A stretch of 64,000 nucleotides of DNA from Flavobacterium sp. 9R (lineage in GTDB: Bacteria; Bacteroidota; Bacteroidia; Flavobacteriales; Flavobacteriaceae). Where the stretch lies: NCBI RefSeq assembly GCF_902506345.1, contig NZ_LR733413.1:2133893-2197892 (forward strand). The letters are read 5' to 3'. This document shows positions 2,191-60,829 of the stretch, piece after piece; position 1 is the first letter of the stretch, and every line of letters starts with the position of its first letter. The position numbers were made by a program, and so were the translations under genes. Below the pieces are notes generated by a model, which was not told where the DNA came from, ran no database searches, and worked only from the letters and a program-made list of their open reading frames with translations.

Positions 2191-2264
2191 AGCTAATCCT
2201 GCTATCCGCTATATCTATTGTGGCGAACCCCGCCACAATAGGATGCCGCTACTATCAGGGCTAG
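2191..2264 (-). repeat. Structured intergenic element, family A copy 1
   Basis: Read on the minus strand it starts TAGCCCTGATAGTAGCGGCA, has a 10-bp hairpin (CTATTGTGGC / GCCACAATAG, loop GGGGTT) and ends AGATATAGCGGATAGCAGGA. The outer CCTG pairs with CAGG. It sits inside the aro operon between the aminotransferase and tyrA. Five further copies with different stems occur in the window. Confidence 0.85.
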
Positions 2265-2274
2265 GTATTATCTG

Positions 2275-3420
2275 CTAAAAACGACGAATCGCTTCTTCAA
2301 TTTTTTCTTCTTTTACACACAAAGCAAATCGGATGTAGCCTTCGCCATTCGAACCAAAAATAGTTCCTGGCGTAATAAAGATGTATTTCTCATACAGTAT
2401 CTTATCAATAAAATCCTCCGCCGATGTGATTCCTGCTGGGAGTTTAGCCCAAACAAACAATCCAACGCCTTCTTTGTACACCTCACAACCTAATTTCTCT
2501 GCCAATGTTTCGGTTAAAATTCTGCGTTTTGCGTAAATCGCATTCATTTCGTCGAACCAAGAAACATCACTCTGCAAAGCCGCAATAGCCCCTTTTTGAA
2601 TGCCGTAAAACATTCCGCTATCCATATTACTTTTTACTTTCAATACTGCATCAATACAAGCAGCATTTCCAGAAACCATTCCTACGCGCCATCCCGCCAT
2701 ATTAAAGGTTTTGGATAACGAATTCAACTCCAATGCAACTTCTTTCGCTCCTTCAACTTGCAACAAGCTCATAGGTTGGTCGTTCAAAACAAAACTATAT
2801 GGATTATCATTGACCAATAGAATGTTGTGTTTTTGAGCAAAAGCCACCAGTTTTTCAAACAAAGCCAAATTTCCTCTGGCTCCTGTAGGCATATGCGGAT
2901 ACCCAATCCACATCAATTTTACTTTAGACAAATCCATTTTTTCCAAAGCCTCAAAATCTGGTTCCCAATTGGTGCTTTCTTTCAAGTCATAATATAGTGG
3001 CACCGCACCTACTAAATTAGTCACAGAAGTATAGGTCGGATACCCAGGATTTGGAATCAAAACACCATCACCTTCATTCAAAAATGCTAACGAAATGTGC
3101 ATAATTCCTTCTTTGGAACCCATCAAAGGCAAAATTTCAGTGGTGGTATTTAGGGTCACTTGGTAATTACGCTCATAAAAATCAGCCATCGCTTGTCTTA
3201 ATTCTGGCAACCCTTGATAGCTTTGATACTGATGTGCATTTTCGTCTTGCATCGCAGCTGTCATTGCGGCAATAACAGCAGGAGCAGGTTTTAAATCAGG
3301 ACTACCTATTCCCATATTGATTACAGGTTTTCCTTCGGCGGCCAATTGGCGCACTTCTCTTAACTTTGAGGAGAAGTAATATTCTTCAACTATCGCTAAA
3401 CGTTGGGCAGTTGTTATCAT
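2275..3420 (-). CDS. PLP-dependent class I/II aminotransferase (probable aromatic aminotransferase)
   Basis: This 381-residue fold-type I PLP enzyme has the Schiff-base lysine in SLSKTFNMAGWR (Lys237), Asp205-x-x-Tyr208 for the cofactor pyridine ring, and YPHMPTGA where most members have YPNNPTGA. The overall pattern resembles LL-diaminopimelate/aspartate-type aminotransferases. Its place between pheA and tyrA implies transamination of phenylpyruvate and 4-hydroxyphenylpyruvate, the last step to Phe and Tyr. The exact amino donor and whether it also serves other pathways cannot be told from sequence. Confidence 0.88.
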   Translation of the reverse strand: MITTAQRLAIVEEYYFSSKLREVRQLAAEGKPVINMGIGSPDLKPAPAVIAAMTAAMQDENAHQYQSYQGLPELRQAMADFYERNYQVTLNTTTEILPLMGSKEGIMHISLAFLNEGDGVLIPNPGYPTYTSVTNLVGAVPLYYDLKESTNWEPDFEALEKMDLSKVKLMWIGYPHMPTGARGNLALFEKLVAFAQKHNILLVNDNPYSFVLNDQPMSLLQVEGAKEVALELNSLSKTFNMAGWRVGMVSGNAACIDAVLKVKSNMDSGMFYGIQKGAIAALQSDVSWFDEMNAIYAKRRILTETLAEKLGCEVYKEGVGLFVWAKLPAGITSAEDFIDKILYEKYIFITPGTIFGSNGEGYIRFALCVKEEKIEEAIRRF

Positions 3421-3458
3421 TTTTTATAGCTTTATTCTAAATTGGAATTTTTTATTTT

Positions 3459-4304
3459 CTAGTTTGGAGATTCAAGTAATGGCTTTGTATTTTTATATTC
3501 ACCCAAAACTTTAAAATAATGCGCCATAATCGAAACTAATGCTTTGGCCTTGGCGTAATCTTCATATTTTTCGAAAGTCACATCTACAAAAAAAGAATAT
3601 TTCCAAGGTGTTTCTATTTTTGGCAAGGATTGTATTTTGGTTAAATTGAGTTTACAATCACTCATCACATTCAAAACAGCGGCTAAACTTCCGCGTTTAT
3701 GGTCCAATTCAAACTTAATGGAGGCTCTATTGATTTCGTCTTCGGAAACAAAAGAATTCTCTTTTTTGAGTATCACAAATCGAGTCATATTGTTCTCGAT
3801 GGTTTGAATCGAAGGCGCGATAATCTCTAAATTATACATCTCAGCAGCGGTTTCACTAGCGATTGCTGCAATTCCTTTGATTTGATTTTCGTGGATTCTG
3901 CGAGCCGTTTCCGCCGTATCTTTATCCTCAACCAATTTGATATTTGGATATTTTTTTAAGAAATCCATACATTGTAATAATGCCATCGGATGCGAATGTA
4001 CTTCTTGTATATCCTCGATTTTTTGTCCAGGCAAAGCCATTAAATTTTGAATAATATCCAAATAATGTTCCCCTATAATGTGCAAATTATTCTTGTCGAT
4101 TAGTGCATAATTTGGAATAATCGGTCCCGCAATGGAGTTCTCGATAGCCATTACCGCTTGGTCACTATCTCCCTTCAACAAGCTATCTACTAATTCTTCA
4201 AAGGACAAGCATTCATCTACAGACACATTTTGGTAGAAATAATCTTTGGCTACCTGATGGTGAAACGACCCCTTTATCCCCTGAATTGCAATTTTTGTTC
4301 TCAT
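3459..4304 (-). CDS. pheA: Prephenate dehydratase with ACT domain
   Basis: This 281-residue enzyme converts prephenate to phenylpyruvate. The catalytic part has AIENSIAGPI (53-62), SHPMALLQC, and the catalytic TRF motif at 174-176. The C-terminal ACT domain (about 195-270) is recognisable, but its two Phe-binding signatures differ from the usual GAL and ESRP: here GSLA (205-208) and QSLP (225-228), so allosteric Phe sensing may be altered. It is the first gene of the aro operon. A terminator hairpin ends 6 bases before its ATG and a Phe/Tyr leader peptide lies further upstream, so expression is probably set by attenuation. Confidence 0.92.
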   Translation of the reverse strand: MRTKIAIQGIKGSFHHQVAKDYFYQNVSVDECLSFEELVDSLLKGDSDQAVMAIENSIAGPIIPNYALIDKNNLHIIGEHYLDIIQNLMALPGQKIEDIQEVHSHPMALLQCMDFLKKYPNIKLVEDKDTAETARRIHENQIKGIAAIASETAAEMYNLEIIAPSIQTIENNMTRFVILKKENSFVSEDEINRASIKFELDHKRGSLAAVLNVMSDCKLNLTKIQSLPKIETPWKYSFFVDVTFEKYEDYAKAKALVSIMAHYFKVLGEYKNTKPLLESPN

Positions 4305-4309
4305 ATATT

Positions 4310-4339
4310 CAAAAAAAAATCCTGATTTTCATCAGGATT
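4310..4339 (-). terminator. Attenuator terminator before pheA
   Basis: On the minus strand AATCCTGAT-GAAA-ATCAGGATT forms a 9-bp stem with a GAAA tetraloop followed by nine T. It ends six bases upstream of the pheA ATG and about 50 bases after the stop of a Phe/Tyr-rich leader peptide. A perfect intrinsic terminator directly in front of a start codon makes sense only as a regulated attenuator. Confidence 0.85.
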
Positions 4340-4391
4340 GTATTGTAGTTTTATTTGTTTTTTTGTCATTCAAATAACCATAGCACAATCC

Positions 4392-4448
4392 TTACTTCTC
4401 AAAGAAGAAATAAAAAGTATAGCTAAAGTAAAAACGGTTATTTGACAT
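4392..4448 (-). CDS. Phe/Tyr-rich leader peptide of the aro operon
   Basis: This 18-residue ORF reads MSNNRFYFSYTFYFFFEK: six Phe and three Tyr, nine of 18 residues, the end products of the operon behind it. It lies between a good Bacteroidota promoter (TATCTTTG at 4480-4487) and an intrinsic terminator in front of pheA. This is the classic arrangement of ribosome-mediated transcription attenuation (compare E. coli pheL): ribosome stalling on Phe/Tyr codons when charged tRNA is scarce should prevent the terminator from forming. The antiterminator pairing was not worked out. Confidence 0.88.
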   Translation of the reverse strand: MSNNRFYFSYTFYFFFEK

Positions 4449-4479
4449 TTTGTGTTCTGATTTTCAATAAATTCTTTGG

Positions 4480-4510
4480 CAAAGATAAAAACTTATTTTG
4501 ATGTCATCAA
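4480..4510 (-). promoter_or_regulatory. Promoter of the aro operon
   Basis: On the minus strand a TTG (4510-4508) is followed after 20 bases by TATCTTTG (4487-4480), matching the Bacteroidota -33/-7 consensus. Transcription would start shortly before the leader-peptide ATG at 4448. The rest of the gene-free stretch up to 4642 is AT-rich with no further feature seen. Confidence 0.7.
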
Positions 4511-4642
4511 AAAAAACAGCATTAATCCCTAACAAAAAAGGATTTCTTTGTGAAATTGATTTTCAATTAACAATCCAATAAAAAAGTTTATAGTAAAGTC
4601 TCTTTTTTTATTGATTATTCTTATTAGTTTGAAACAAAAAAA

Positions 4643-5569
4643 CTATTTTTTCATTTTTGGTACTCGTGAAGGCGTATCTTTTCCACTGATTATAGTTTGC
4701 GAACTGATGGCAATCGACTTAATAATCTCGGTCATATTATCCATATCCAAAGTACTAATTTCGTCACTTAATTTATGATAATTCGGCTCCACATCCATTT
4801 TAGAAGTAGAAATAGTATGCGCTGGAACTCCTAAAGCAGCCAATCTTGCATTATCAGAACGATAAAATAATTGTTGCTCAGGATAAGGGTCTTGATAAAA
4901 GTTAAATCCAGAACCCACTAAATTCTTTTGCAAAATAGTTCCAAAATCAGAGCGCTCGAATCCTGTAATATACGCTGAGTTTTTACCCCATTTACTATCG
5001 GTTCCAATCATTTCGAGATTGAACATCGCCACGACCTCATCAGCATTGATAGAATTTGAGAAAAAAGAAGCACCGTAACCTCCCGTTTCTTCGCCAGTAA
5101 ACGCTACAAAAATAAGTGTTCGTGCATTATCGTTTTTCTTTTTAAAATATTCTGCCAAAGTAATTACGGCTGTAATTCCAGAAGCGTCATCATTTGCACC
5201 ATTAAAAACTTTGTCATCGCCAGACTCTTTCATTCCTAAATGGTCGTAATGTCCTGAAAAAATCACATATTCGTTAGGCTTTGATTTCCCTGGAATAATT
5301 CCAATCACATTATTGGCCTTTTTATCTTTAATTAAGAAATCCTGACGATAGGATTGTAACTCTTTATAATAAGTCAATCCAATTCGTTTGAACTCTCCTT
5401 CGATAAAAACAGACGCTTTTTCGATACCTGGTGTAAACAAAGCACGCCCTTCCATTGCATCCGAAGACAATTCCGTTTCTATTCGAGTAACCTCGCCTTT
5501 TTGAATCCCACTCTGAGCTTGAGCCGTGAGTCCAAAAAGTACCATCAATCCTAAACTAATTTTTTTCAT
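4643..5569 (-). CDS. Secreted M28-family metallopeptidase
   Basis: This 308-residue protein begins with a signal peptide (about residues 1-18, cleavage after AQA). It has the two-zinc M28 ligands in order: His/Asp in SGHYDHLG, Asp in NGANDDASG, the Glu pair in FTGEETGG, Asp in MIGTD and a final His in PAHTIST. Such enzymes are exported aminopeptidases acting on peptides in the periplasm or outside. The substrate is unknown. It ends the transcript direction started by the symporter gene 11 bases upstream, so the two probably form an operon for peptide or amino-acid use. Confidence 0.88.
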   Translation of the reverse strand: MKKISLGLMVLFGLTAQAQSGIQKGEVTRIETELSSDAMEGRALFTPGIEKASVFIEGEFKRIGLTYYKELQSYRQDFLIKDKKANNVIGIIPGKSKPNEYVIFSGHYDHLGMKESGDDKVFNGANDDASGITAVITLAEYFKKKNDNARTLIFVAFTGEETGGYGASFFSNSINADEVVAMFNLEMIGTDSKWGKNSAYITGFERSDFGTILQKNLVGSGFNFYQDPYPEQQLFYRSDNARLAALGVPAHTISTSKMDVEPNYHKLSDEISTLDMDNMTEIIKSIAISSQTIISGKDTPSRVPKMKK

Positions 5570-5580
5570 ATGTATGTGAT

Positions 5581-6831: not shown

Positions 6832-6973
6832 AACTACAAGTTTGTAGTAAATATAGAAATCTTAGCGCATTGGTAGGACAAAAACTGAGATAAATTGATA
6901 TTCAGCAAAAACAAAATCCCTCAATATTTTTTCATACTATTCAAAGAAACTTCCATAGCTTGGTTTTTCTGTT

Positions 6974-6981
6974 TACTTTTG
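6974..6981 (+). promoter_or_regulatory. Probable -7 element for gldA
   Basis: TACTTTTG matches TAnnTTTG 17 bases before the gldA ATG. No well-spaced TTG was found at -33, so support is moderate. Confidence 0.45.
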
Positions 6982-6997
6982 CAACAAAACCATTCTT

Positions 6998-7894: not shown

Positions 7895-7975
7895 TGGTTA
7901 GTGATTAGTGATTAGTAATCAAAACTAAGGACTAATCACTAATTACTATTCACTAGTTATACTATTCACTAATTA
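7890..7975. repeat. Low-complexity palindromic spacer between convergent genes
   Basis: Words built on TAGTGATTAGT occur first in one orientation and then reversed (ACTAATCACTAATTACT), giving an imperfect hairpin between the stops of gldA and the glycosyltransferase. It probably serves as a bidirectional terminator. Confidence 0.55.
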
Positions 7976-9016: not shown

Positions 9017-9141
9017 CGTAAAGTATGTTTTAGCCAAAAAAAGAATACTCTTTTTTGGAACTGCAAATGTAGAACTCTTGGGTAATATTATCAGAAGAAA
9101 ATAAAAATTTAACCCTTAGATAATTACTTTCGCCAAAGCCA

Positions 9142-10163: not shown

Positions 10164-10178
10164 TTCCTTTAGTTTGAA

Positions 10179-13046: not shown

Positions 13047-13136
13047 GGGCGTGTCCCAAGGGCCGGGCTATCCGTTCCCGCTTTTTTTCTTGATAAAAAA
13101 ATCAAGAAAAAAGAGCTCCACTACTATCCCTCACGC
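13047..13136 (-). repeat. Structured intergenic element, family B copy 1
   Basis: Read on the minus strand: GCGTGAGGGATAGTAGTGGAG, a hairpin with a TTTTTTCTTGAT / ATCAAGAAAAAA stem, then GGAACGGATAGCCCGGCCC and a small CCC/GGG hairpin ending in CACGCCC. The outer GGG pairs with CCC. The same plan recurs at 30579-30693. Confidence 0.75.
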
Positions 13137-13159
13137 GGGCATTGTGCAATACAACACCA

Positions 13160-16086: not shown

Positions 16087-16163
16087 ACTTTATTTTAAAC
16101 CGCTTAGTCGCAAGGGCGCAAAGCTTTATTATTATTTCCAAATATTCACTATTTGAGGCTCTT

Positions 16164-16234
16164 TAGCCCCGATAGCAGTGTAAATCCTTGTGTGCCGGGG
16201 TTCGGCATACAAGATTGTAACGGATAGCGGGAAC
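16164..16234 (+). repeat. Structured intergenic element, family A copy 2
   Basis: TAGCCCCGATAGCAGTG..., hairpin CTTGTGTGCC / GGCATACAAG (one G-U), then AACGGATAGCGGGA. Outer CCCG pairs with CGGG. It lies in the metH leader, between the S-box and the start codon, on the strand opposite to the transcript. This copy is the most diverged of the six (AGTGTAAATCC for AGCGGCATCC). Confidence 0.8.
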
Positions 16235-16303
16235 GTTGATACCAAAAAAGCGGCAATGATGCGCTCATTCAATTATTTAAAAATGTATCGGGAAAGGGGT
16301 TTG

Positions 16304-16325: not shown

Positions 16326-16328
16326 GTT

Positions 16329-16432
16329 GTTATCTATCCGCGCTATGCTTGGTAGAATGTAGCACCTTCTTTAAAAAAGTAAAGGGTTGCTAAGGTTTCA
16401 TCGGGTCTTTTCCCTCCGCCTTTCGTGATAAC
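16329..16432 (-). ncRNA. SAM-I (S-box) riboswitch upstream of metH-N
   Basis: On the minus strand the S-box core is clear: AAAGGCGGAGGGA, GACCCGATGAAACC, TTAGCAACC and GGTGCTACATTC. Helix P1 closes it with GTTATC (16432-16427) and GATAAC (16334-16329). The aptamer binds S-adenosylmethionine and would turn off metH-N and the genes behind it when SAM is plentiful. About 240 bases separate it from the metH-N ATG. Confidence 0.93.
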
Positions 16433-16497
16433 TTTCAATAAAAATAGGAACGGTGCAAAGTAACGACATAAGGCTAACAATTGCAAGTGTTTTTTTA

Positions 16498-23751: not shown

Positions 23752-24453
23752 TTATTTTTGGTGCAACCCACATTCTTTGTGACTAGATTCCCAAGACCAT
23801 CTTCCGGCTCTGATGTCTTCTCCTTCGACTATGGCTCGTGTACAAGGTGCACAACCGATGCTCACGAAGCCTTTTTTGTGCAATGCGTTTTGTGGCACAT
23901 TGTTGGTATCAATATATTCTTGAACTTCTTTTAGACTCCACTTCAACAAAGGATTGAATTTGATGATGTCAAAATGGGCATCGTATTCAAAAAAGGCTAA
24001 GTCACTTCTATTCTCTGACTGCTCTGCTCTCAAACCTGTAATCCAAATTTGATTCCCTGATAATGCCTTTTTCAACGGCACCACTTTTCGGATAAAACAG
24101 CATTCTTTTCTATTTTCTACCGATTCATAAAAACTGTTAGGTCCTTTGGTATTCAACAAGTTTTCTACTTGACTCGTTTCTGGATAGAAAGTCTGAATAG
24201 TCACTTTGTATTTCTTTAGGGTCTTATGAAAAACATCATAAGTTTCTTGAAACAATCTTCCAGTATCAAGGGTAAATATTTTTATCGGCAATTCATTGGT
24301 TGCGATTAAAGCTGTTATTACCTGGTCTTCTTGCCCAAAAGAAGTTGAGAAAACTACTTTTTCTGGAAATTCATTAGCCAAAAAAGCCAAAGTTTCCTCT
24401 ATGGAAAGCTTTTCGGTTTTTTGTATTAACTCTTCTACTAGTAAAGCACTCAT
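23752..24453 (-). CDS. cysH: Adenylyl-sulfate (APS) reductase, CysH family
   Basis: This 233-residue protein has FSTSFGQEDQV (35-45), the Cys118-Cys119 pair, Cys201-x-x-Cys204 and the catalytic Cys228 in ECGLH. The CC...CxxC set ligates a [4Fe-4S] cluster and marks the APS-reducing branch of the family rather than the PAPS-reducing E. coli type. That agrees with the absence of an APS kinase gene here. Product is sulfite for the siroheme reductase. It is first in the run cysH-cysD-cysN-sir-cobA, with a good promoter upstream. Confidence 0.93.
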   Translation of the reverse strand: MSALLVEELIQKTEKLSIEETLAFLANEFPEKVVFSTSFGQEDQVITALIATNELPIKIFTLDTGRLFQETYDVFHKTLKKYKVTIQTFYPETSQVENLLNTKGPNSFYESVENRKECCFIRKVVPLKKALSGNQIWITGLRAEQSENRSDLAFFEYDAHFDIIKFNPLLKWSLKEVQEYIDTNNVPQNALHKKGFVSIGCAPCTRAIVEGEDIRAGRWSWESSHKECGLHQK

Positions 24454-24532: not shown

Positions 24533-24654
24533 AATTTATTTTAAAAAAAATAAGGCTGAGTTTTTTATCAAAAAACCCAGTCAATTAAGCAATTAAAAGA
24601 TTTAAGAGTAATAAAAAGAATAAAAAAGTGAATTGAAAAAATATACTTCTGTTA

Positions 24655-24725
24655 TAGCCCCGGGAGTAGCGGCATCCTTTGTTGCCGGGGTTCGGCAACA
24701 AAGATATAGCGAATCACGGGAGGAG
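24655..24725 (+). repeat. Structured intergenic element, family A copy 3
   Basis: TAGCCCCGGGAGTAGCGGCA..., perfect hairpin CTTTGTTGCC / GGCAACAAAG with GGGGTT in the loop, then AGATATAGCGAATCACGGGA. Outer CCCG pairs with CGGG. It lies between the divergent cysH and tauE genes. Confidence 0.83.
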
Positions 24726-24802
24726 ACGTGATGAAAAAGAACAATTCGTGCTCCTAAAAAATTTAATTCTACTTAATCCATAGGATTATTATAAAATTGT
24801 TT

Positions 24803-30507: not shown

Positions 30508-30578
30508 TTTATTCTATTTTACGAGTCATTCAACTCCTTTTATTTACTTCATTTTTATATTTCCCCTCATTTTAATTT

Positions 30579-30693
30579 GGGCGTGACCCTGTTAAAAAAA
30601 GGGGCTTATTTATAGCACCGTTTACAAAGCCCCTTTCTTTAACAGGGTCGGGCTATACGCGCTACTTTGGTAGCCAGCTGCTATCCCTCACGC
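30579..30693 (-). repeat. Structured intergenic element, family B copy 2
   Basis: Read on the minus strand: GCGTGAGGGATAGCAGCTGG, a short hairpin CTACCAAAGTAG, CGCGTATAGCCCGACCC, then a long hairpin (about 20 bp, CCCTGTTAAAG...GGGGC with GCCCC...TTAACAGGG) ending in CACGCCC. The outer GGG pairs with CCC as in copy 1. It fills most of the metX-thrA spacer. Confidence 0.75.
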
Positions 30694-30734
30694 AAAATTC
30701 CACAAGAACTTTTAGTGGAATCTCATTTTTTCAA

Positions 30735-31765: not shown

Positions 31766-31779
31766 AGGTATTTTGTTGC

Positions 31780-31880
31780 GTTATCTTTTTCGCTAGGCGA
31801 ATAGAATGTAGCACCTTCTTCGATTTCCGAAGGGTTGCTAAGGCTTCATTGGGTCTAATCCCTCCGCCTTTCTTTATAAC
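31780..31880 (-). ncRNA. SAM-I (S-box) riboswitch upstream of metX
   Basis: On the minus strand: AAAGGCGGAGGGA, GACCCAATGAAGCC, TTAGCAACC and GGTGCTACATTC, with P1 formed by GTTAT (31880-31876) and ATAAC (31784-31780). The P3 loop differs from the metH copy while the core is nearly identical. It would control metX, thrA, osmC and metZ in response to SAM. Confidence 0.93.
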
Positions 31881-32016
31881 ATTTCAATACGTTTGTGAAC
31901 TTAAAGCTGCAAAGTAACTATTTATTTTTTTAACACGCAAATTTTTAAAACAACAACCAAGTTACAAATCAATTGTGAACTTGGTTATTGTTAGCTTATT
32001 GAATGGTATATTCTTT

Positions 32017-32192
32017 AACCCAGATTCCGCATTAGAAATCTACTACAACTAAATTCTCCTTCAAAACCAAGAACTTACTCCCATTTTTAAATTCAAAATA
32101 CAAAAGTATTCCTTCTTCAAAAATAGTCCGTGAGCTCTTGCTTTTATTGAATAATTCAGTTTCGCAACGAAGTCTAATGCGGATTCTGGGTT
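32017..32192. mobile_element. MITE-like element with 20-bp terminal inverted repeats
   Basis: AACCCAGATTCCGCATTAGA (32017-32036) is mirrored by 32173-32192 with a single mismatch, around ~136 bases that encode nothing recognisable. One end overlaps the stop codon of a small ORF. There is no transposase gene, so it would be a non-autonomous element. The rest of the gene-free stretch 31881-32016 shows nothing clear. Confidence 0.6.
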
Positions 32193-32401
32193 TAAATGAA
32201 AAGCGTATCGTTTTCGTTAGAATACATATGAAACAACATTGATTTTTTAGTAGTTTCATTCGTAGCTTCAGAAGATTTATCCATAATGAAACGTGGATGA
32301 ATCAACTCGTGTACGGTTTGGTCTACTTTTTCTATTTTGTTTTTGATGTTTTTTCTACTAAAGAAAGAAACTATTGTGCGGAAGGTTATATTTGTTATCA
32401 T
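32192..32401 (-). CDS. Small unknown protein downstream of metY
   Basis: A 69-residue ORF 30 bases after the metY stop, same strand. It begins MITNITFRTIVSFFSRKN and ends with SMLFHMYSNENDTLFI. No domain, signal peptide or membrane helix is evident. The stop codon abuts the terminal repeat of the MITE-like element, so the original C-terminus may have been altered. It could be a real conserved small protein or chance. Confidence 0.45.
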   Translation of the reverse strand: MITNITFRTIVSFFSRKNIKNKIEKVDQTVHELIHPRFIMDKSSEATNETTKKSMLFHMYSNENDTLFI

Positions 32402-34269: not shown

Positions 34270-34280
34270 CGCCCGAATAC

Positions 34281-34378
34281 AGAGGAAAAATTTGAACTGA
34301 TTGCAACCTCTTCATAATGAAATATTTCATTGTGAATATCGAAAACAAACTTCGATATAAAAAATGCTAAAGCAGGAA
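34281..34378 (+). ncRNA. SAM-II-like (long-loop) riboswitch in the metK leader
   Basis: P1 is AGAGG (34281-34285) with CCTCT (34307-34311). The loop TTTGAACTGATTGCAA resembles the SAM-II L1 with its conserved UUGCAA. After two extra hairpins (AATGAAA/TTTCATT and ATCGAA/TTCGAT) comes ATAAAAAATGCTAAAGCAGG, matching the 3' SAM-II segment AUAAAugnaGCUAAAnnGG. CTG (34297-34299) can pair with CAG (34373-34375) to form the pseudoknot. The inserted hairpins make it a long-loop variant. It precedes metK, the SAM-producing enzyme, so feedback by SAM is logical. Confidence 0.75.
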
Positions 34379-34444
34379 CACTTCCCTTTAGTTTTTTACA
34401 GCAATTACAATTTCCTCGCTTAATTTTAAAATACATTTTTTATT

Positions 34445-35760: not shown

Positions 35761-36162
35761 TCATTTTATGGTTCCTTTTAGCTCTAACTTTATTATTCCA
35801 GAGGTGGAATTACTAATTACTTCGATTACTCTCAGTACCCTTCCTTTAGTCTCAGGCACAAACTGTACAACAATTGATTTTGTTTCACCACCAAGTATGG
35901 GTTTGTTTAGAATGGTTCCTTCAAAAGAAACATCATCATTAGAATCCACCTCGGTAACCACAAACAAATTTTTTGAAACATTGTTAATATGATAAACCTG
36001 CATAATTGTATCACCTACCTTAGCGGTTCCAAAATCAATCATTTTCTTATCAATAGTTGTTTTTGCGTATTTATTGAATTTTGTTTCTATTTTTATGTTT
36101 AAAAGAATAAAAACAACAAATAAAGACAATCCTATTATTACATATAATTTCTTATTTTTCAT
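35761..36162 (-). CDS. DUF1573-like protein with N-terminal membrane anchor
   Basis: This 133-residue protein has one hydrophobic helix (about 6-24) and then an immunoglobulin-like DUF1573-type domain: IDFGTAKVGDTIMQVYHINNVSKN, GGETKSIVVQFVPETKGRVL and IKLELKGTI. It is probably exposed to the periplasm. The last gene of a two-gene unit; its start overlaps the upstream gene's end by 11 bases. DUF1573 proteins in Bacteroidota often accompany small secreted peptides, and one is encoded nearby. Function unknown. Confidence 0.78.
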   Translation of the reverse strand: MKNKKLYVIIGLSLFVVFILLNIKIETKFNKYAKTTIDKKMIDFGTAKVGDTIMQVYHINNVSKNLFVVTEVDSNDDVSFEGTILNKPILGGETKSIVVQFVPETKGRVLRVIEVISNSTSGIIKLELKGTIK

Positions 36163-37108
36163 TCATATCTAATTTTACCTCAACATTTACTTTTAAATTT
36201 AAATCTGAGTCTTTTGGACCATATTTGACCGGACAAATCATCCAATCTATTTGTTTACTAATACAACGTTCCCAAGTTTGAATAGCTGAATCATTTTTGG
36301 ATCTAGCCAATCCCAAATAAGGCGCTGGCATAGTTTTCTCATCATTGAAATTTTTTAATTTTAATTTTGAGCTAATATCTTTAGGACCTAAATCATAAGG
36401 AATGCCGTATGTATTTATTATTTCTACTCCAACACATAATCCTTCTTCAGGAAAAGATATGCCAATATGATTTACATCCACCTTGAGCTCATAATTCTTA
36501 TTTTCAGGAAAAACAATTATATCATCCGTATTAATTTTGGTTCCAGGCTTTTTAAGAACTGAATTATATTCATAAAAGTTAATTTTAAAATGATTCATAA
36601 AGACATTCTTTTTAGTTCTCTTTCCTATACTCAAGATTACGGCTTTAACATATTGTTCTTCGTGAAAAGGTGTTTTTACAAGTGTACAAACTTCATAACC
36701 TGAACGCACAAGATACAAAAGTGAAGTTCCCTTTTTTATTCCAACTTTTTTGACAGTATAATTTCCTTTGGAGTTAACATCAACAACAACTTCCTTTAAT
36801 TCTTCTACATGAGGAATTAGTCTTAAATTAATCTCATAGACTTTGTCCTCAATAAAATTATTCAAATCAACTAAAACACTTTGATAACCAACACAAGAGA
36901 CTAAAAGTTTATCATTCGTGTCTTTAATGCTTATTAAAAATCTACCTAAACTATCCGATGAAAAAGATTGTTTACCACTAAGCATCGTAAAGTTCACCTT
37001 CTCAATAGGTAGATTACTATTATTATCAAGTACAACTCCCGCTAAACTCTGTGCTAATAAACAATTACTAGATAAAAGAAAAATAATCATTATAAAAGTC
37101 AGTCTCAT
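36152..37108 (-). CDS. Secreted protein with carboxypeptidase-regulatory-like domain
   Basis: This 318-residue protein has a signal peptide (residues 1-19, ending LLAQ) and a CarboxypepD_reg-like beta sandwich (about 20-100: LAGVVLDNNSNLPIEKVNF, FSSDSLGRFLISI, VSCVGYQSVLVDL). The remaining 200 residues are not recognised. There is no outer-membrane barrel, unlike most proteins with this N-terminus. It overlaps the DUF1573-like gene. The block is AT-rich and lies between duplicated metK ends, which suggests acquisition. Confidence 0.7.
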   Translation of the reverse strand: MRLTFIMIIFLLSSNCLLAQSLAGVVLDNNSNLPIEKVNFTMLSGKQSFSSDSLGRFLISIKDTNDKLLVSCVGYQSVLVDLNNFIEDKVYEINLRLIPHVEELKEVVVDVNSKGNYTVKKVGIKKGTSLLYLVRSGYEVCTLVKTPFHEEQYVKAVILSIGKRTKKNVFMNHFKINFYEYNSVLKKPGTKINTDDIIVFPENKNYELKVDVNHIGISFPEEGLCVGVEIINTYGIPYDLGPKDISSKLKLKNFNDEKTMPAPYLGLARSKNDSAIQTWERCISKQIDWMICPVKYGPKDSDLNLKVNVEVKLDMNEK

Positions 37109-37176
37109 ATTTTATTATTAAAAGAGATAAGCCAAAAAGGCTTATCTCAAGGTTCCAGAATTTAAAACATTGTCAA

Positions 37177-37368
37177 TTAACAAGGCTCTCCAGTAAGATG
37201 GTTTATACTCTCATATAAAACAATACCAAAAATAGAGATAACTGTTTTTTTCATCCATTCTCCAGCATAACACTCTCTAATTTTTTCTGCTCTAGCAGGA
37301 GTTGAAAACAACATACTTAATCCTAAAACTGCTGTTACACCTAATAATTTAAATTTATTCATTTTCAA
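37177..37368 (-). CDS. Small secreted peptide with two cysteines
   Basis: This 63-residue peptide has a clear signal sequence (MKMNKFKLLGVTAVLGLSML...ARA, cleavage after about residue 27) and a short mature part with Cys33 and a C-terminal Cys63 in LTGEPC. No known family is evident. With the DUF1573-like and carboxypeptidase-regulatory neighbours it resembles small exported peptide loci of Bacteroidota such as NVEALA types, though it lacks that motif. Met at residue 3 is an alternative start. Confidence 0.6.
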   Translation of the reverse strand: MKMNKFKLLGVTAVLGLSMLFSTPARAEKIRECYAGEWMKKTVISIFGIVLYESINHLTGEPC

Positions 37369-37529
37369 AGTTTTAATATTAATACCTACTCTTTCGTTTT
37401 TCGGTTTACACGATAAAACTACAAACGGCCGTCAGATTAATTTTACAATGTAAAGCTAAAAAAAAATGAATCAAACTAATTTTCACTAAAATAAATCAGT
37501 TTTTATTTATTAATACTTTTGCTAATATC

Positions 37530-37569
37530 TGTAGACCAAGTAAAAAATGCTTTTGGATTGTAAGATCAA
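37530..37569 (+). pseudogene. metK 3'-end relic (direct-repeat copy 2)
   Basis: The sequence reads VDQVKNAFGL-stop, against [10 protein letters not shown] in metK, and continues with the same TAAGATCAA. There is no upstream metK coding region, so this is a detached 3' end. It is followed by its own terminator. The stretch 37369-37529 holds nothing else recognised. Confidence 0.88.
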
Positions 37570-50120: not shown

Positions 50121-50373
50121 AAGACTTATTTTTTTTGATAAAGCTTGACAAATTTAAAATAATAATTGGAATATTTACTATGCATGCATAATATTTTTTC
50201 AAAACTATTACGATTTCGCTGAAGGGTCTATATTCCCTTGTTAAACTTACACAAAAACAATCCAGCGTGATTTATTATTGTTTGTATTTGTATTGTTTTT
50301 AACAATTTTATTTTTATTTGTTTTAATACTTGCGTGTTATATATACAAAAAGTGTCTTTTGAATAGCTTGTTC

Positions 50374-50463
50374 TAGCCCAGATAGGAGCGACATCCTCTA
50401 GTGGTCTCGTTTTTTTTAAACGAGACCACTAGAGATATAGCGCATAGCTGGAATTAGCTCCTA
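50374..50463 (+). repeat. Structured intergenic element, family A copy 4
   Basis: TAGCCCAGATAGGAGCGACA..., perfect 17-bp hairpin CTCTAGTGGTCTCGTTT / AAACGAGACCACTAGAG, then AGATATAGCGCATAGCTGGA and TTAGCTCC. Outer CCAG pairs with CTGG, and GGAGC in the left flank pairs with GCTCC at the right end. It has the longest hairpin of the family. It lies between divergent etfB and pdhB; the rest of 50121-50547 shows only promoter-like AT-rich DNA (TATTTTTG at 50508-50515). Confidence 0.85.
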
Positions 50464-54158: not shown

Positions 54159-54233
54159 GAGCTCATCCAGCTGTACGCTATATCTCTAGTGGCGAACCCC
54201 GCCACTAGAGGATGCCGCTTCCATCTGGGCTAA
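54157..54233 (-). repeat. Structured intergenic element, family A copy 5
   Basis: On the minus strand TAGCCCAGATGGAAGCGGCA..., perfect hairpin CTCTAGTGGC / GCCACTAGAG with GGGGTT, then AGATATAGCGTACAGCTGGA and GAGCTCCTA. Outer CCAG pairs with CTGG. Its end overlaps the stop codon of the DUF5686 gene. Confidence 0.85.
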
Positions 54234-54243
54234 ACAATCGATT

Positions 54244-54852: not shown

Positions 54853-54891
54853 TTAACGAAAACGTTATAGTTATATATCCTTATTTTTTTC

Positions 54892-54921
54892 TTGTAAAAA
54901 CGTTCGGTTTGTATACTTTTG
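54892..54921 (+). promoter_or_regulatory. Promoter of ppa
   Basis: TTG (54892-54894), 19 bases, TACTTTTG (54914-54921), 34 bases before the ppa ATG: an almost ideal Bacteroidota promoter. Confidence 0.8.
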
Positions 54922-54955
54922 CAAAAAAATTATAAAAAGCTAAGACTTAATAAAA

Positions 54956-55486: not shown

Positions 55487-55509
55487 ATTTACCCTTCATT
55501 TTTTACAAA

Positions 55510-55548
55510 AAAAGCAATACTCAGCAATGAGTGTTGCTTTTTTTTGCT
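55510..55548 (+). terminator. Terminator of ppa
   Basis: AGCAATACTC-AGCAAT-GAGTGTTGCT followed by eight T (one G-U pair). Confidence 0.85.
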
Positions 55549-55600
55549 TAAATTCGTTACCAACTAGATTTTATAATTAATCAAAAAATAACATTTTTTT

Positions 55601-58153
55601 ATGAATACATTTATGATTTATGTGCCAATTGTAATGGCATTTATTGGACTTCTGTTCATGGTAGCAAAACGAGCCTGGGTGCTCAAACAAGATGCTGGTG
55701 ACGGCAAAATGAAAGAAATATCAGATTACATTTATGAAGGGGCTTTGGCCTTCTTAAAAGCAGAATATAGATTACTAGCTGTATTTGTCCTTTTAGCAAG
55801 TGCAGTATTGGCAGGGATAACTTTCTTGCCTGGCGTAAAAACCCATTTGTTAATTGTAATTGCCTTTATTTTTGGGGCTTTTTTCTCAGCTTTGGCTGGA
55901 AATATGGGAATGAAAATCGCAACTAAAACCAACGTAAGAACTACTCAAGCCGCACGTACTAGTTTACCTCAAGCTTTAAAAGTGTCTTTTGGTGGAGGAA
56001 CCGTAATGGGATTAGGTGTAGCCGGTTTAGCTGTTTTAGGGTTGACCGGTTTTTTTATTGTCTTTTTCAGAATCTTTATGAACGGAGAATGGACTTCTAC
56101 TGAAGATATGACGATTGTTTTAGAAACCTTAGCTGGATTTTCTTTAGGAGCTGAATCTATCGCTTTGTTTGCTCGTGTTGGTGGTGGAATTTACACCAAA
56201 GCGGCCGACGTTGGTGCCGATTTAGTTGGTAAAGTAGAAGCAGGAATTCCAGAAGATGACCCAAGAAATCCTGCTACAATTGCAGATAACGTTGGGGATA
56301 ATGTTGGAGATGTTGCCGGTATGGGTGCCGATTTATTTGGGTCGTATGTAGCGACTGTATTGGCGGCAATGGTTCTTGGAAACTACGTGATTAAAGATAT
56401 GGGTGGTAAAATTGACGATGCCTTTGGCGGAATCGGTCCAATTTTATTGCCGATGGCGATTGCTGGTTTTGGAATTTTGTTTTCTATTATCGGAACGATG
56501 TTGGTGAAAATTAGTAGTGATGATGCCAAAGAAGCTCAAGTACAAAAAGCCTTAAACATCGGAAACTGGGTGTCTATTGTTTTAACCTTGGTGTCTTGCT
56601 ACTTCTTAGTACAATATATGTTGCCTACGACTATGAAAATGGAGTTTTACGGCGAAGGAGTTAAAGACATCGATTCTATACGTGTTTTTTATGCTACGAT
56701 TGTAGGTTTGTTTGTGGGTGGAGCTATTTCTTCAGTTACTGAATATTATACAGGATTAGGCACAAAGCCAGTTTTAGCAATCGTGCAAAAATCTTCTACT
56801 GGAGCTGGAACTAACGTAATCGCTGGTTTGGCAACGGGTATGATATCTACTTTTCCAACAGTTTTATTATTTGCTGGTGCCATTTGGGCTTCTTATGCTT
56901 TAGCTGGATTTTACGGTGTGGCTTTAGCCGCTTCAGCGATGATGGCGACTACTGCTATGCAATTAGCAATTGATGCATTTGGACCTATCTCAGACAACGC
57001 TGGTGGTATTGCTGAAATGAGCGAGTTGCCAAAAGAAGTTCGTACTAGAACCGACATTTTGGATTCTGTTGGAAATACAACCGCTGCTACAGGAAAAGGT
57101 TTTGCGATTGCTTCTGCGGCTTTAACTTCATTGGCTTTGTTTGCGGCTTATGTAACTTTTACAGGAATTGATGGAATCAATATTTTTAAAGCTCCTGTTT
57201 TAGCTATGTTATTTGTGGGTGGAATGATTCCAGTGGTTTTCTCTGCTTTAGCAATGAATTCTGTTGGAAAAGCTGCAATGGATATGGTGTACGAAGTACG
57301 TCGTCAGTTCAAAGAAATTCCTGGAATTATGGAAGGCACGGGAAAACCAGAATATGGTAAATGTGTGGAGATTTCAACTAAAGCGGCTTTACGCGAAATG
57401 ATGTTGCCTGGTATATTGACCATTGGTTTCCCAATTGCTATTGTGCTACTTGGAAAATTAGTTTACGGTGATAACAACCAATTGATTGCTGAAATGTTAG
57501 GAGGTTATATGGCTGGTGTAACAGTTTCTGGAGTACTTTGGGCAGTTTTCCAAAATAATGCTGGAGGTGCTTGGGACAATGCTAAGAAATCATTCGAAGC
57601 TGGGGTTATGATTAATGGAGAAATGACATATAAAGGTTCTGATGCACACAAAGCGGCGGTAACTGGAGATACAGTTGGAGACCCTTTCAAAGATACCTCT
57701 GGGCCATCTATGAATATTTTAATCAAATTGACTTGTTTGATTGGATTAGTGATTGCTCCTATTTTAGGAAGTGGCCATTCTGATACGGCTGCTACGGCGT
57801 CTTGTTGCGCAGGTGGAGCTACCACAGAAATGATGTGCGAAGCCAAAAAATGTGACCCTGCAAAAATGGCTACTATGACCAAAGACGAGTGCGCAGCGAT
57901 GTGCAAGGAAAATGGTTGTTCAGAAGAATGTACTGCTAAATGTTTGTCAATGTACGATGCCAATGGAAAATTTGTGGGTGAAAAAACACAAACCATCAAA
58001 TTGACTACGATGAAAGATGTTCGTGTGGAAATGACCAATGAAAACGGGAAAACCAAAGCTACAGTAACTACTACAGCCAACGGAACGACCACCACTCAAA
58101 CTTTCGAAGGAACTGAGGAAGAAGTGAAAGCGAAAATCAAAGCTTTGAAATAA
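55601..58153 (+). CDS. hppA: Membrane-bound proton/sodium-translocating pyrophosphatase with Cys-rich C-terminal tail
   Basis: This 850-residue protein has about 16 membrane helices and the pyrophosphate site DVGADLVGKVEAGIPEDDPR, NPATIADNVGDNVGDVAGMG. GNTTAATGKG, with Ala at the position that is Lys in K+-independent forms, indicates the K+-stimulated class. It pumps ions across the inner membrane using PPi. From about residue 727 a non-membrane tail of ~120 residues follows: a Cys-rich stretch (SCCAGGATTEMMCEAKKCDP, CAAMCKENGCSEECTAKC) and a Thr/Lys-rich end. This tail is unusual for the family. Confidence 0.95.
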   Translation: MNTFMIYVPIVMAFIGLLFMVAKRAWVLKQDAGDGKMKEISDYIYEGALAFLKAEYRLLAVFVLLASAVLAGITFLPGVKTHLLIVIAFIFGAFFSALAGNMGMKIATKTNVRTTQAARTSLPQALKVSFGGGTVMGLGVAGLAVLGLTGFFIVFFRIFMNGEWTSTEDMTIVLETLAGFSLGAESIALFARVGGGIYTKAADVGADLVGKVEAGIPEDDPRNPATIADNVGDNVGDVAGMGADLFGSYVATVLAAMVLGNYVIKDMGGKIDDAFGGIGPILLPMAIAGFGILFSIIGTMLVKISSDDAKEAQVQKALNIGNWVSIVLTLVSCYFLVQYMLPTTMKMEFYGEGVKDIDSIRVFYATIVGLFVGGAISSVTEYYTGLGTKPVLAIVQKSSTGAGTNVIAGLATGMISTFPTVLLFAGAIWASYALAGFYGVALAASAMMATTAMQLAIDAFGPISDNAGGIAEMSELPKEVRTRTDILDSVGNTTAATGKGFAIASAALTSLALFAAYVTFTGIDGINIFKAPVLAMLFVGGMIPVVFSALAMNSVGKAAMDMVYEVRRQFKEIPGIMEGTGKPEYGKCVEISTKAALREMMLPGILTIGFPIAIVLLGKLVYGDNNQLIAEMLGGYMAGVTVSGVLWAVFQNNAGGAWDNAKKSFEAGVMINGEMTYKGSDAHKAAVTGDTVGDPFKDTSGPSMNILIKLTCLIGLVIAPILGSGHSDTAATASCCAGGATTEMMCEAKKCDPAKMATMTKDECAAMCKENGCSEECTAKCLSMYDANGKFVGEKTQTIKLTTMKDVRVEMTNENGKTKATVTTTANGTTTTQTFEGTEEEVKAKIKALK

Positions 58154-58201
58154 TAGTATCGACTAACTCAAAGTAAATGCTTTGGCATAATCACAAACTA
58201 A

Positions 58202-58242
58202 AAACACCTCACAACATTATTTTGTTGTGAGGTGTTTTTTTT
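58202..58242. terminator. Bidirectional terminator between hppA and dNK
   Basis: ACACCTCACAAC-(8)-GTTGTGAGGTGT, a perfect 12-bp stem, with T run on the plus strand. Confidence 0.88.
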
Positions 58243-58266
58243 ATAAATCTGAGGTAATCTGTGTTT

Positions 58267-58881
58267 CTAAAACAATCCGTTCAATTCTGCGTCAATTCTG
58301 TTGATGATGTTTCCTAAGTCTTCTGGGTTATCCACAAAATTGATATTATCTACATCAATTACTAAAAGTTTTCCTTTCGTATAACTTTGAATCCACGCTT
58401 CGTAACGTTCGTTCAAACGGCTCAAATAGTCAATAGAAATAGAGTTTTCATACTCGCGACCGCGTTTGTGAATTTGTCCTACCAAATTAGGAATGGAGCT
58501 TCTTAAGTAAATCAACAAATCTGGTGGTTGCACCATCGTTTCCATCAATTCAAATAAGGAAGTATAATTCTGAAAATCTCGATTGGTCATCAATCCCATC
58601 GCATGCAAGTTGGGAGCGAAAATATGAGCGTCTTCGTAAATAGTACGGTCTTGAATGATTTTTTTACCACTTTGGCGAATTTGCATTACTTGACGAAAAC
58701 GGCTATTCAAAAAGTAAATCTGAAGATTAAAAGACCAGCGTTCCATTTGGTGGTAAAAATCATCCAAATAAGGGTTGTCAACTACGTCCTCGTAATGTGG
58801 TTCCCATTTAAAATGTTTCGACAATAATTGTGTTAAGGTAGTTTTTCCTGAACCTATGTTTCCTGCTACTGCTATGTGCAT
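58267..58881 (-). CDS. Deoxynucleoside kinase
   Basis: This 204-residue kinase has the P-loop GNIGSGKTTL (7-16), the DRTIYEDAHIFA lid/ERS-like region (QDRTIYEDA) and PDLLIYLR. It phosphorylates deoxynucleosides for salvage; deoxyadenosine/deoxyguanosine kinase is likely. It overlaps the upstream gene's stop by one base (TAATG), so the two are translationally coupled. Confidence 0.9.
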   Translation of the reverse strand: MHIAVAGNIGSGKTTLTQLLSKHFKWEPHYEDVVDNPYLDDFYHQMERWSFNLQIYFLNSRFRQVMQIRQSGKKIIQDRTIYEDAHIFAPNLHAMGLMTNRDFQNYTSLFELMETMVQPPDLLIYLRSSIPNLVGQIHKRGREYENSISIDYLSRLNERYEAWIQSYTKGKLLVIDVDNINFVDNPEDLGNIINRIDAELNGLF

Positions 58882-59681
58882 TACGGTAGTATGATTTTAA
58901 AATTATAAATTCCTTCGGTTGTAAAAATAGATAAAATTTGGGCTTGGTAATAGAATTTTTCAAACCTTTTTTCAGGAAGTTGAAGTAGCGTATTTGCCCA
59001 CGATTTATCTTTTTGTCGGCTCAATAGTGTTATTTTTTGGTCCAAACTGTAAAGTATTTGGTTGGAGCTGATGATTTGAAGTTGGTCAGCATTTGGCAAT
59101 TTTCCTAAGTTTTCGATGGCACCAAATAGCGAGCAAGCGTAGCCGTCTCCACTGTCATCCATCCATATAAAGGAATTAAAGGCGGTGGTGTACTGTTTGA
59201 TTTTTCCAGCAAGAGGAGTACTAATGGTTTTGTACTCGTTTTTGAGATAGTCATACAATCCAATTTGTTGATTGAGGTTGTTGTACACCCATAATTGGTT
59301 TTGACCCGCAATACCTACGGCAGTTGCATTGATTGGCGTAGGGTGCTCCGAAAAATTAATTTTTTGACTTTCGTTGAGTTGGTTGTCTAATAGGATTACG
59401 GTGTTGAAATCCTCATAAAACAACACTATTTTGAGTGGATTTTGAAGGTCAACTTTGGTGATTTTTCCTAAGGTCACGTTTTTGTATTCCCAGTTTTCGG
59501 AGCCTTTACTTTTCTTGAAAACGTTATTTTCTATTGTATAGGCATAATCAAAAGCGTCGTGAGCCAAAAACGTGACTGTTTTGGGAGCGTTAAGCATTTC
59601 TTGCGTTGGAATCCCCTTAATTTGAGAATAGCATTGGGCAAAAAACGAAAATGCTATTAAAAATAGTAAATACTTCTTCAT
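58881..59681 (-). CDS. Unknown exported protein, possible beta-propeller
   Basis: This 266-residue protein has a signal peptide (MKKYLLFLIAFSFFAQCYS). Repeating short strands with polar turns (KIVLFYEDFNTVILLDNQLN, NQLWVYNNLNQQIGLYDYLK, SNQILYSLDQKITLLSRQKD) look like blades of a propeller. No family name recognised. It is the first gene of a pair with the deoxynucleoside kinase (one-base overlap). Confidence 0.75.
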   Translation of the reverse strand: MKKYLLFLIAFSFFAQCYSQIKGIPTQEMLNAPKTVTFLAHDAFDYAYTIENNVFKKSKGSENWEYKNVTLGKITKVDLQNPLKIVLFYEDFNTVILLDNQLNESQKINFSEHPTPINATAVGIAGQNQLWVYNNLNQQIGLYDYLKNEYKTISTPLAGKIKQYTTAFNSFIWMDDSGDGYACSLFGAIENLGKLPNADQLQIISSNQILYSLDQKITLLSRQKDKSWANTLLQLPEKRFEKFYYQAQILSIFTTEGIYNFKIILP

Positions 59682-59792
59682 TTCGCTAATTTACAATTAA
59701 ACCTTTTCATTTTTCTTAAGTCTATAGTTATTTATAAACTAATGCTGTAACAAATGAATTTGAATCTCGTCTTATTGAAAAATTTGGAAACT

Positions 59793-60704
59793 ATGTATAA
59801 AATTATTTTGCTTTTGACCGCGCTTGTATTGAGCAGTATTGGGCTTAGAGCTCAGGAATTTCAGGGGATGGCAGTGTATGAGTCTAAAACGAGTACAGCT
59901 GATTTTAAGACCAGAATGGAAGGAAATAAGAATATTACTCCCGAAATGATGAAAAATATCGAGGACCGAATGAAAAAAATGTTTGAGAAAACATTCATTC
60001 TCAATTTTGACAAATCGGCATCTATTTATAAAGAAGAAGAAAAATTAGACGCTCCAGGACAAGATGGCGGCGGCGGAATGCGAATGATGGCTTCTATGAC
60101 TGGCGGCGGCGGAACGTATTACAAAAATGTAAAAGACAAAAGCTATACGGTTGACAAAGAATTTATGGGAAAAGAATTCTTGGTAAAAGACACGCTGACC
60201 AATCTAAAATGGAAAATGGAAGGCGAAACGAGAGTAATTGGCGGTTACAATTGCTATAAAGCGACTGCTGTTCGTCCGGTTAGTAAAACCGATTTTAGAA
60301 ATTTTAGACCAAGAGACGAGAAAAAAGACGAGACTAAAAAAGACGCCACTGAGAAAGCGGGCGAACCAAAGAAAACCAGCTTTATGGATGAGTTAGACAT
60401 CCCCAAAGAAGTTACGATTACAGCGTGGTATACCCCAGAAATCCCTGTAAACCAAGGTCCAGAAGGCTATTGGGGATTGCCTGGTTTGATTCTGGAAGTT
60501 AATGATGGTAAAACCGTGATTTTATGTTCTAAAGTTGTTTTGAACCCAAAAGAGAAAGCAGCTATAAAACCCGCCACGAATGGTAAAGTAATCAACCAGA
60601 AAGATTTTGACGAAACGGTGATTAAAAAAATGGAGGAATTCCGTGAGATGAACCGTGGAAGAGGTGGAAATAATGGCGGATTTAGAATGAGAATAGGAGG
60701 TTAA
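59793..60704 (+). CDS. GLPGLI-family secreted protein
   Basis: This protein of about 303 residues has a signal peptide (MYKIILLLTALVLSSIGLRA) and the family signature YWGLPGLILEV near residue 225, with GGYNCYKATA and AWYTPEIPVNQGPE. The central part is rich in Gly and Met (GGGGMRMMASMTGGGG). An upstream Met at 59754 would place 13 residues before the signal peptide, so 59793 is preferred. GLPGLI genes usually sit next to a large outer-membrane barrel gene, as here. Function unknown. Confidence 0.85.
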   Translation: MYKIILLLTALVLSSIGLRAQEFQGMAVYESKTSTADFKTRMEGNKNITPEMMKNIEDRMKKMFEKTFILNFDKSASIYKEEEKLDAPGQDGGGGMRMMASMTGGGGTYYKNVKDKSYTVDKEFMGKEFLVKDTLTNLKWKMEGETRVIGGYNCYKATAVRPVSKTDFRNFRPRDEKKDETKKDATEKAGEPKKTSFMDELDIPKEVTITAWYTPEIPVNQGPEGYWGLPGLILEVNDGKTVILCSKVVLNPKEKAAIKPATNGKVINQKDFDETVIKKMEEFREMNRGRGGNNGGFRMRIGG

Positions 60705-60757
60705 TACTTCCTTTTTTAATTTAAAAACAAAAACAAAAACAAAATAATGCCGCCTTC

Positions 60758-60829
60758 TAGCCCCGGTGGGAGCGGCATCCTTTGCCTTTTTTCTTTACAA
60801 AAGGCAAAGATATAGCTGACGACGGGACT
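60758..60829 (+). repeat. Structured intergenic element, family A copy 6
   Basis: TAGCCCCGGTGGGAGCGGCA..., perfect hairpin CTTTGCCTTTT / AAAAGGCAAAG without the GGGGTT loop, then AGATATAGCTGACGACGGGA. Outer CCCG pairs with CGGG. It lies between the GLPGLI gene and the outer-membrane barrel gene. Confidence 0.85.

Follow-up and report, generated by a model that had tools for sequence, protein, structure and literature searches.

How can a dispersed element change the sequence of its longest stem from copy to copy and still keep that stem paired, and is its fold maintained as RNA or as single-stranded DNA? The question arises in a stretch of 64,000 nucleotides from Flavobacterium sp. 9R (contig NZ_LR733413.1, positions 2,133,893 to 2,197,892; hereafter the window), where an original prediction, made from the letters alone, had proposed six structured elements with two covarying helices around a constant core. 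These elements belong to the family Flavo-1. The copies that were compared with relatives are static at orthologous intergenic sites, the core and the pairing of one strand are conserved, and replacement without change of site affects the terminal hairpin, at times as its tip, at times as its stem and once with the entire element. We give about an even chance to the explanation that Flavo-1 is a dispersed foldback element of old date that is under constraint as a single-strand hairpin and whose stems would be renewed by template switching and conversion.

Identity, fold and covariation of Flavo-1

All seven elements of the window match the Rfam family RF01705 (Flavo-1) over its full length, positions 1-76, with scores of 52.0-72.6 bits against a gathering score of 42 bits. 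The six elements proposed originally lie where they had been located, score 59.2-72.6 bits and have the consensus structure given by Rfam; as a correction, those at 2191 and 54157 are minus-strand copies. The prediction had missed a seventh and divergent one, also on the minus strand, at 13057-13145 (52.0 bits). The elements are therefore not new but members of an already-known family, named in 2010 (PMC2864571), and Flavo-1 has counted ever since as an abundant RNA family to which no function is assigned (PMC2864571, PMC9029176). The sequence motifs said to be shared by the six copies proved to be approximate: TAGCCCnGATnGnAGCGGCATC is exact in two of the six, and AGATATAGCGGATAGCnGGA in one.

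The genome (3.58 Mb in 16 contigs) contains at least 146 RF01705 matches, 143 of them above the cut-off, a count drawn from the 150 of 1120 first-look candidates that were scored and possibly low. No match was found in 14 control genomes, so the six copies cannot be ascribed to chance. As regards a restriction of the family to Bacteroidetes, the search covered these controls and 60 genomes of the order, 38 of which, the present one included, have matches over the cut-off.

The fold is one long hairpin, in which helices of 2-4 pairs, with conserved purine-rich internal loops between them, lead to a terminal stem. This stem is mostly 12 bp long, and 12-17 bp in the six original copies if the innermost G.T of the GGGTT loop is counted; 59 distinct hairpins occur among 66 parsed copies of the genome (the 13057 copy being left out). 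Covariation was scored in 67 copies, the seven of the window and 60 of the best-scoring among the 146, in alignments fitted to the structure, which favours the structure. On this footing, the 17 pairs of the model are formed in 88.3% of cells versus 67.5% after shuffling, both sides change in 15 of the 17 pairs, and covariation amounts to 0.566, compared with 0.190 for shuffled alignments and 0.075 to 0.120 for slid partners; none of 500 shuffles reached the observed score. A cross-species alignment (70 matches, 58 distinct rows) gave 0.463 versus 0.165 for its shuffles, and four of five measures beat all shuffles, the exception being further pair types (218/500). The outer stem, P1, covaries as had been described: its second pair is C-G in 42 copies, U-A in 18, A-U in four, G-C in two and something else in one. 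The strong covariation of the original prediction thus holds up in the larger alignment.

The mispairs distinguish the two strands. Proximal terminal stems contain 15 G.T, one A.C and six other mispairs, and core pairs contain seven G.T and one A.C after pair 26/98, ill-defined in one core type (50 C-A cells and one C-T cell), is dropped. Pooled, G.T exceeds A.C by 22 to 2 (binomial p 4e-5), which indicates that the annotated strand is the one that folds. With covariation beating both controls, this agrees with the selection on a folded single strand that had been proposed. The suggested AGC/GCT pseudoknot found no backing: there was no variation to judge it by, and in the computed fold the ends of copy 54160 pair as a nested outer helix.

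Three flank types can be discerned by eye, namely a short one ending in AGCTCC, an extension of the GACGACTCGTG type, and similar stretches of ~30 nt on both sides; most terminate in GCTCC or a variant of it (also by eye). The possibility that the elements are remnants of a larger known insertion element received no support, but many copies carry the longer types. A peptide reading of the flank repeats was rejected because, as judged by eye, their frame differs between copies.

Site conservation and in-place exchange of hairpins

Judged by the DUF5686 locus, the nearest named species is F. succinicans, whose DUF5686 protein shares 95% amino-acid identity with that of the window. Two draft genomes, G069 and G128, are closer, with DNA identities of 95% and 91%, respectively, at the DUF5686 locus. 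The copies in the window are the following.

2191..2266, minus strand: Flavo-1 copy, 67.8 bits, between aminotransferase and prephenate dehydrogenase genes (Pfam); core and hairpin identical in G069 and G128
13057..13145, minus strand: divergent Flavo-1 copy, 52.0 bits, upstream of a B12-dependent methionine synthase gene (Pfam); orthologous copy in G128
16161..16238, plus strand: Flavo-1 copy, 72.6 bits, antisense in the leader between an S-adenosylmethionine (SAM) riboswitch and the homocysteine S-methyltransferase gene (Pfam); same in G069
24652..24727, plus strand: Flavo-1 copy, 60.5 bits, between divergent open reading frames, one of which (23752-24453) encodes a PAPS reductase domain protein
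50371..50458, plus strand: Flavo-1 copy at site A, 65.5 bits, between divergent ETF-domain and transketolase-like genes (Pfam)
54160..54235, minus strand: Flavo-1 copy at site B, 64.3 bits, filling the spacer between the DUF5686 and HhH-GPD genes (Pfam), antisense to both
60755..60833, plus strand: Flavo-1 copy, 59.2 bits, between Porph_ging and CarboxypepD_reg genes (Pfam)

All seven copies are intergenic with respect to the larger open reading frames; two touch short frames of a mechanically made list, which are taken for spurious. Riboswitch matches lie at 16327-16434, 31778-31882 and 34276-34380, in a region of methionine and sulphur genes (Pfam): two are minus-strand SAM riboswitches, among them the one at 16327-16434 beside copy 16161, and the other is a plus-strand SAM-II match just over its cut-off. 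Among the neighbours of the 67 copies, 54 genes run in the same direction as the element and 63 in the opposite one (p 0.46; assigned by open-frame length, with 17 flanks unassigned). Where both neighbours were assigned (n=50), 32 contexts are co-directional, 12 convergent and six divergent. A replication-strand bias was considered and set aside: contig C1 carries 63 plus-strand and 76 minus-strand copies out of 139, with no trend by eye, the origin position not having been located.

The copies have stayed in place. Joined-flank probes for 18 sites were compared with two relatives, and for 16 of these both flanks were found in order in G069, G128 or both, in no case contiguous (smallest gap 71 nt); none of the 16 two-flank probes revealed an empty site in these two genomes. 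One further probe (L157) was ambiguous and another (L188) matched by one flank only. An orthologue table of 43 rows yielded 28 sound pairs at 19 sites of the own genome under the rule that one flank be at least 90% and both at least 70% identical over at least 60 letters; the 15 rows dropped were mostly paralogues. In the sound pairs, 541 of 562 core positions are identical with G128 and 555 of 561 with G069, as are 2599 of 2787 and 2671 of 2783 flank positions. The core thus differs less than the flanks (21/562 versus 188/2787 for G128, Fisher p 0.006; 6/561 versus 112/2783 for G069, 1e-4).

The same sites are occupied in more distant relatives. Of 80 Flavobacterium loci around one gene, 21 have an element at site A and 21 have one at site B, and its orientation at each site never varies; at site B every one of the 21 elements is minus-strand relative to the DUF5686 gene, and a plus-strand open reading frame also follows it in 16 of these loci (pattern search). 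Cross-species core identities, to be read as upper bounds, are 0.928 at site A (17 loci) and 0.930 at site B (11 loci), compared with 0.715 and 0.720 for the 50 nt upstream and 0.543 and 0.550 for third codon positions of the adjacent DUF5686 gene. The stretch 51-150 nt downstream of site A, at 0.926, equals the core in conservation. Converted or odd loci were left out of these figures (L063, L064, L127 and L134 at site A, and ten of the 21 at site B). One of them, L127, is titled a Bifidobacterium breve metagenome-assembled genome and has a Flavobacterium-like locus with Flavo-1 copies; it is probably mislabelled or contaminated.

Within this frame, the hairpins of the 28 sound pairs are identical in 14 and different in 14. 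At four of the 19 sites the tip differs from that of G069 or G128, with the core, the proximal stem and the flanks kept, and at another two sites the difference extends to the stem or to the entire element. Copy 24652 carries the tip CCGGGGTTCGG and its counterpart in G069 the tip TCTCGTTTTTTTAAACGAGA; copy 50371 has a TCTCG-type tip and its relatives have the GGGGTTC type, the tip being swapped against G069, G128 and F. succinicans; at L187 the own tip is of the CTCG type and that of the relatives of the GGGGTTC type; and at L178 it is G128 that carries the TCTCG type. Nearly the whole stem is different at L163, both arms still matching, and the element at 16161 has a different core type and hairpin in G128. 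One compensated pair occurs at L176, and the remaining hairpin differences amount to 1-2 letters. These differences between orthologous sites support the earlier idea that stems are exchanged or repaired within a fixed frame.

Hairpins also recur between sites. The pattern TCTCGTTTN{1,8}AACGAGA, which misses some tips of its type, occurs at three places in the own genome, all within Flavo-1, and at three in G069, one of which (L217) is not Flavo-1. L219, an own copy that is sister to 24652, bears the other tip, and the hairpin of 24652 reappears in the own copy L160 within a different core type. Stem and core similarity are uncorrelated among 66 own copies (Mantel r 0.043, p 0.15), as exchange would explain. 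Site A of the F. succinicans group agrees in P1 and hairpin, but for one letter, with the group's own site B at a distance of 3.8 kb; in 17 of the 21 site A loci a single stem type, different from that one, is kept.

The site A element of L134 (8783-8870) has a 5' arm complementary to its 3' arm through the core, its internal loops being lost, and L136 shows a partial scar of the same kind. Template switching can create hairpins and by itself maintain the complementarity of their arms (PMC8794818), and the L134 arms suggest the scar expected from such an event. From these patterns we infer ectopic short-tract exchange between copies, combined with correction inside the hairpin. The orthologous tip swaps show directly how long stems can change sequence yet stay paired, and they bear on the extent to which covariation, taken by itself, is proof of an RNA. 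As evidence for selection, the covariation of the terminal hairpin has to be qualified, since template switching alone can keep its arms complementary.

Competing explanations for the conserved fold

According to the explanation favoured here, Flavo-1, a short dispersed foldback element of ~70-80 nt that is longer in some copies through conserved flank types, probably spread long ago. Two processes would account for the replacement of its terminal hairpin: template switching within that hairpin, and short-tract conversion involving copies with core or stem letters in common. The selected object, in what is the weakest step of the account, may be the hairpin into which the annotated strand folds in single-stranded DNA, with a structure-specific protein as its reader. 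Flavo-1 would then be neither an RNA gene nor a cis-regulator of its neighbouring gene; the stem would need only to pair, the tip would be interchangeable, and the conserved internal loops would be the recognized part. In its most specific form, which is tentative and rather doubtful, this becomes a chromosomal single-stranded-DNA hairpin site and not an RNA family, with DNA-tuned loops read by a dedicated structure-specific protein and a tip cassette passed by template switching among ~150 unmoving copies, which would be renewed in this way. Folding energies point in the same direction. Of the two strands of the core, the annotated one is predicted to be the more stable in 61 of 66 copies under DNA parameters, and the less stable in 48 of 66 (Turner) or 51 of 66 (Andronescu) under RNA parameters; for whole elements, the annotated strand is favoured in 62 of 67 copies with DNA energies and in 39 of 67 with RNA energies. 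This modelled contrast agrees with the lack of orientation bias, and is not proof.

A structured RNA, each copy being transcribed or acting inside transcripts and its fold being selected as RNA, is possible, if clearly short of probable. Rfam enters the family under the type Gene; sRNA, the 2010 discovery table has it as 'probably' an RNA and not cis-regulatory (PMC2864571), and strand-specific covariation, tolerance of G.T and the preference of RNA energies, too, for the annotated strand of the terminal hairpin would all suit such an RNA. However, RNA energies favour the opposite strand of the core. In the F. psychrophilum transcriptome, the Flavo-1 matches covered in PMC9723704 lie sense or antisense; several coincide with 5' transcribed regions, but many are untranscribed. 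No transcript role is favoured, because neighbouring genes run 54 with and 63 against the element, site B is fixed in antisense and many F. psychrophilum matches lack transcription. The -7 box of Bacteroidetes promoters, TAnnTTTG, shows no clear excess upstream of the copies (10/67 in the forward reading versus 6-8/67 in three other flank readings). Still less can be said for a bidirectional transcription terminator or gene-end insulator, which we regard as very improbable: intergenic positions, long stems and the excess of convergent (12) over divergent (6) contexts would fit, but 32 of the 50 contexts are co-directional, what comes after the stem, by eye, is GATATAGCGG or letters of the GATTG type, GAT(A/T)-type letters of the core and not a U-tract, and the copy at 16161 separates a SAM riboswitch from its gene, which a strong terminator in that position would shut off.

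Exchange might also suffice by itself. A selfish repeat without host function, in which conversion and template switching hold both pairing and consensus, would account for the observed in-place exchanges and for the scars in L134 and, in part, L136, and hairpins can indeed arise and persist by template switching (PMC8794818). We nevertheless consider it unlikely. Strand-symmetric correction is not expected to leave 22 G.T mispairs against two A.C; correction would close the internal loops, yet among 42 orthologous rows they are plainly closed only in L134; and site A retains one stem type in 17 of 21 loci while its core is intact. A REP/RAYT-type origin (repetitive extragenic palindromic elements and their associated tyrosine transposases), in which a Y1 HUH transposase recognizes the single-stranded DNA hairpin and spread Flavo-1, appears quite improbable. 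Short strand-specific hairpins dispersed in both orientations recall REP elements, the own genome has two Y1 matches, and RAYT subclass 2.6 in Bacteroidetes is described in PMC6006769 as having atypical cognate hairpins. Against this, Y1_Tnp is missing from four of 14 same-genus genomes that are at least 99% complete and have at least 40 copies, and over 37 genomes of the genus its count does not follow that of the Flavo-1 copies (Spearman 0.01; copies are the best 65 per genome at most, so that high counts mean at least 65). Eight loci with weak, mostly RAYT-like Y1 matches have no Flavo-1 beside them, and in 31 Y1 loci, a subset of the Y1 genes, one model match was found (L009), the 37.1 bits of L001 being below the Rfam cut-off. 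The RAYT-like genes of L028 and L029 carry other hairpins beside them, and a GT[AG]G hairpin foot is not conserved, by eye, in the 67 listed copies. The mobiliser may since have been lost.

The RAYT-like genes of L029/L028 encode YIHNNP/YVHNNP motifs and are accompanied by other hairpin repeats, such as GATAGCGCGGATTTGCAATCCGTGC in L029, which are perhaps the atypical subclass 2.6 REPs outlined in PMC6006769. Further candidate mobilisers were rejected. Reverse transcriptase RVT_1 (PF00078) is weakly excluded (Spearman 0.21, p 0.21, over the same 37 genomes and, as for DUF559, with copies again counted up to 65; missing in one of 14 near-complete genomes with at least 40 copies, G013). The DUF559 nuclease, considered after a DUF559 gene was found enclosed by an inverted Flavo-1 pair in L222, shows a Spearman coefficient of 0.08 over 37 genomes and is missing in seven of those 14. 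An autonomous element inside the two closest inverted pairs is discounted by their inconsistent contents, DUF559 in L222 and, in L221, a gene that we take to be truA-like. A blastn search for phage or plasmid carriage, with one copy as query and E 1e-5, returned no match.

Several points weigh against the foldback explanation that we prefer. Same-genus copy counts, under stricter filters, range up to at least 65, but since some genomes have none (G018, G020) or one (G024, G033), Flavo-1 is dispensable. No element aligns at site 24652 in G128, and hence loss or late gain does occur. In the comparison with G128, the core exceeds its flanks in conservation by a modest margin (p 0.006), and the cross-species core identities are inflated, because only loci with a model match entered (21 of 80 per site) and converted or odd ones were left out. 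Conversion between copies could imitate purifying selection, though a single stem type persists at site A in 17 of 21 loci, and saturation of the stems could equally produce their lack of correlation with the core. Sampling from the top of the score list favours intact folds. As for the energies, the contrast comes from modelling a capped construct, DNA and RNA parameters alike prefer the annotated strand in the terminal hairpin, and RNA energies for whole elements suggest no strand preference (39/67). A protein partner for Flavo-1 was not found.

Other repeats of the window and known systems

The window contains other repeats. At 32014-32196, ~180 bp have no counterpart at the orthologous position of G069 and G128, where the flanking matches overlap by ~5 bp, and copies 96-99% alike occur elsewhere in those genomes; this looks like a recently mobile element resembling a miniature inverted-repeat transposable element. 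At 35761-37530, ~1.8 kb bounded by direct repeats of roughly 100 bp are present here and not in G069, and include an Rfam DUF805b RNA match at 37383-37414. A ~125-bp repeat at 30573-30697, with many copies in G069 and G128 that are mostly 73-84% alike, is a separate dispersed family.

Among known systems, the Rfam entry for Flavo-1 is the closest reference. It files the family as an sRNA (small RNA) gene, a view that the orientation and energy results obtained here do not favour, and the longer flank types extend beyond its 76-position model. REP elements and their RAYTs are alike in being short, dispersed, strand-specific hairpins in both orientations, whereas Flavo-1 is without a conserved GT[AG]G foot, has a larger, multi-loop core and does not co-occur with Y1 genes. 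The CGTC-type REPs (PMC3733652), an example of orphan palindromic repeats for which no transposase is known, resemble Flavo-1 in their many copies, their lack of a linked transposase and their uneven counts between species, but they have stems of 8-9 bp and a CGTC tag in place of a conserved multi-loop core and longer variable stems. Quasipalindrome correction by template switching (PMC8794818) makes the arms of a hairpin complementary in one step, as the L134 element suggests; it differs in that the tip swaps of Flavo-1 between copies also need exchange with another copy.

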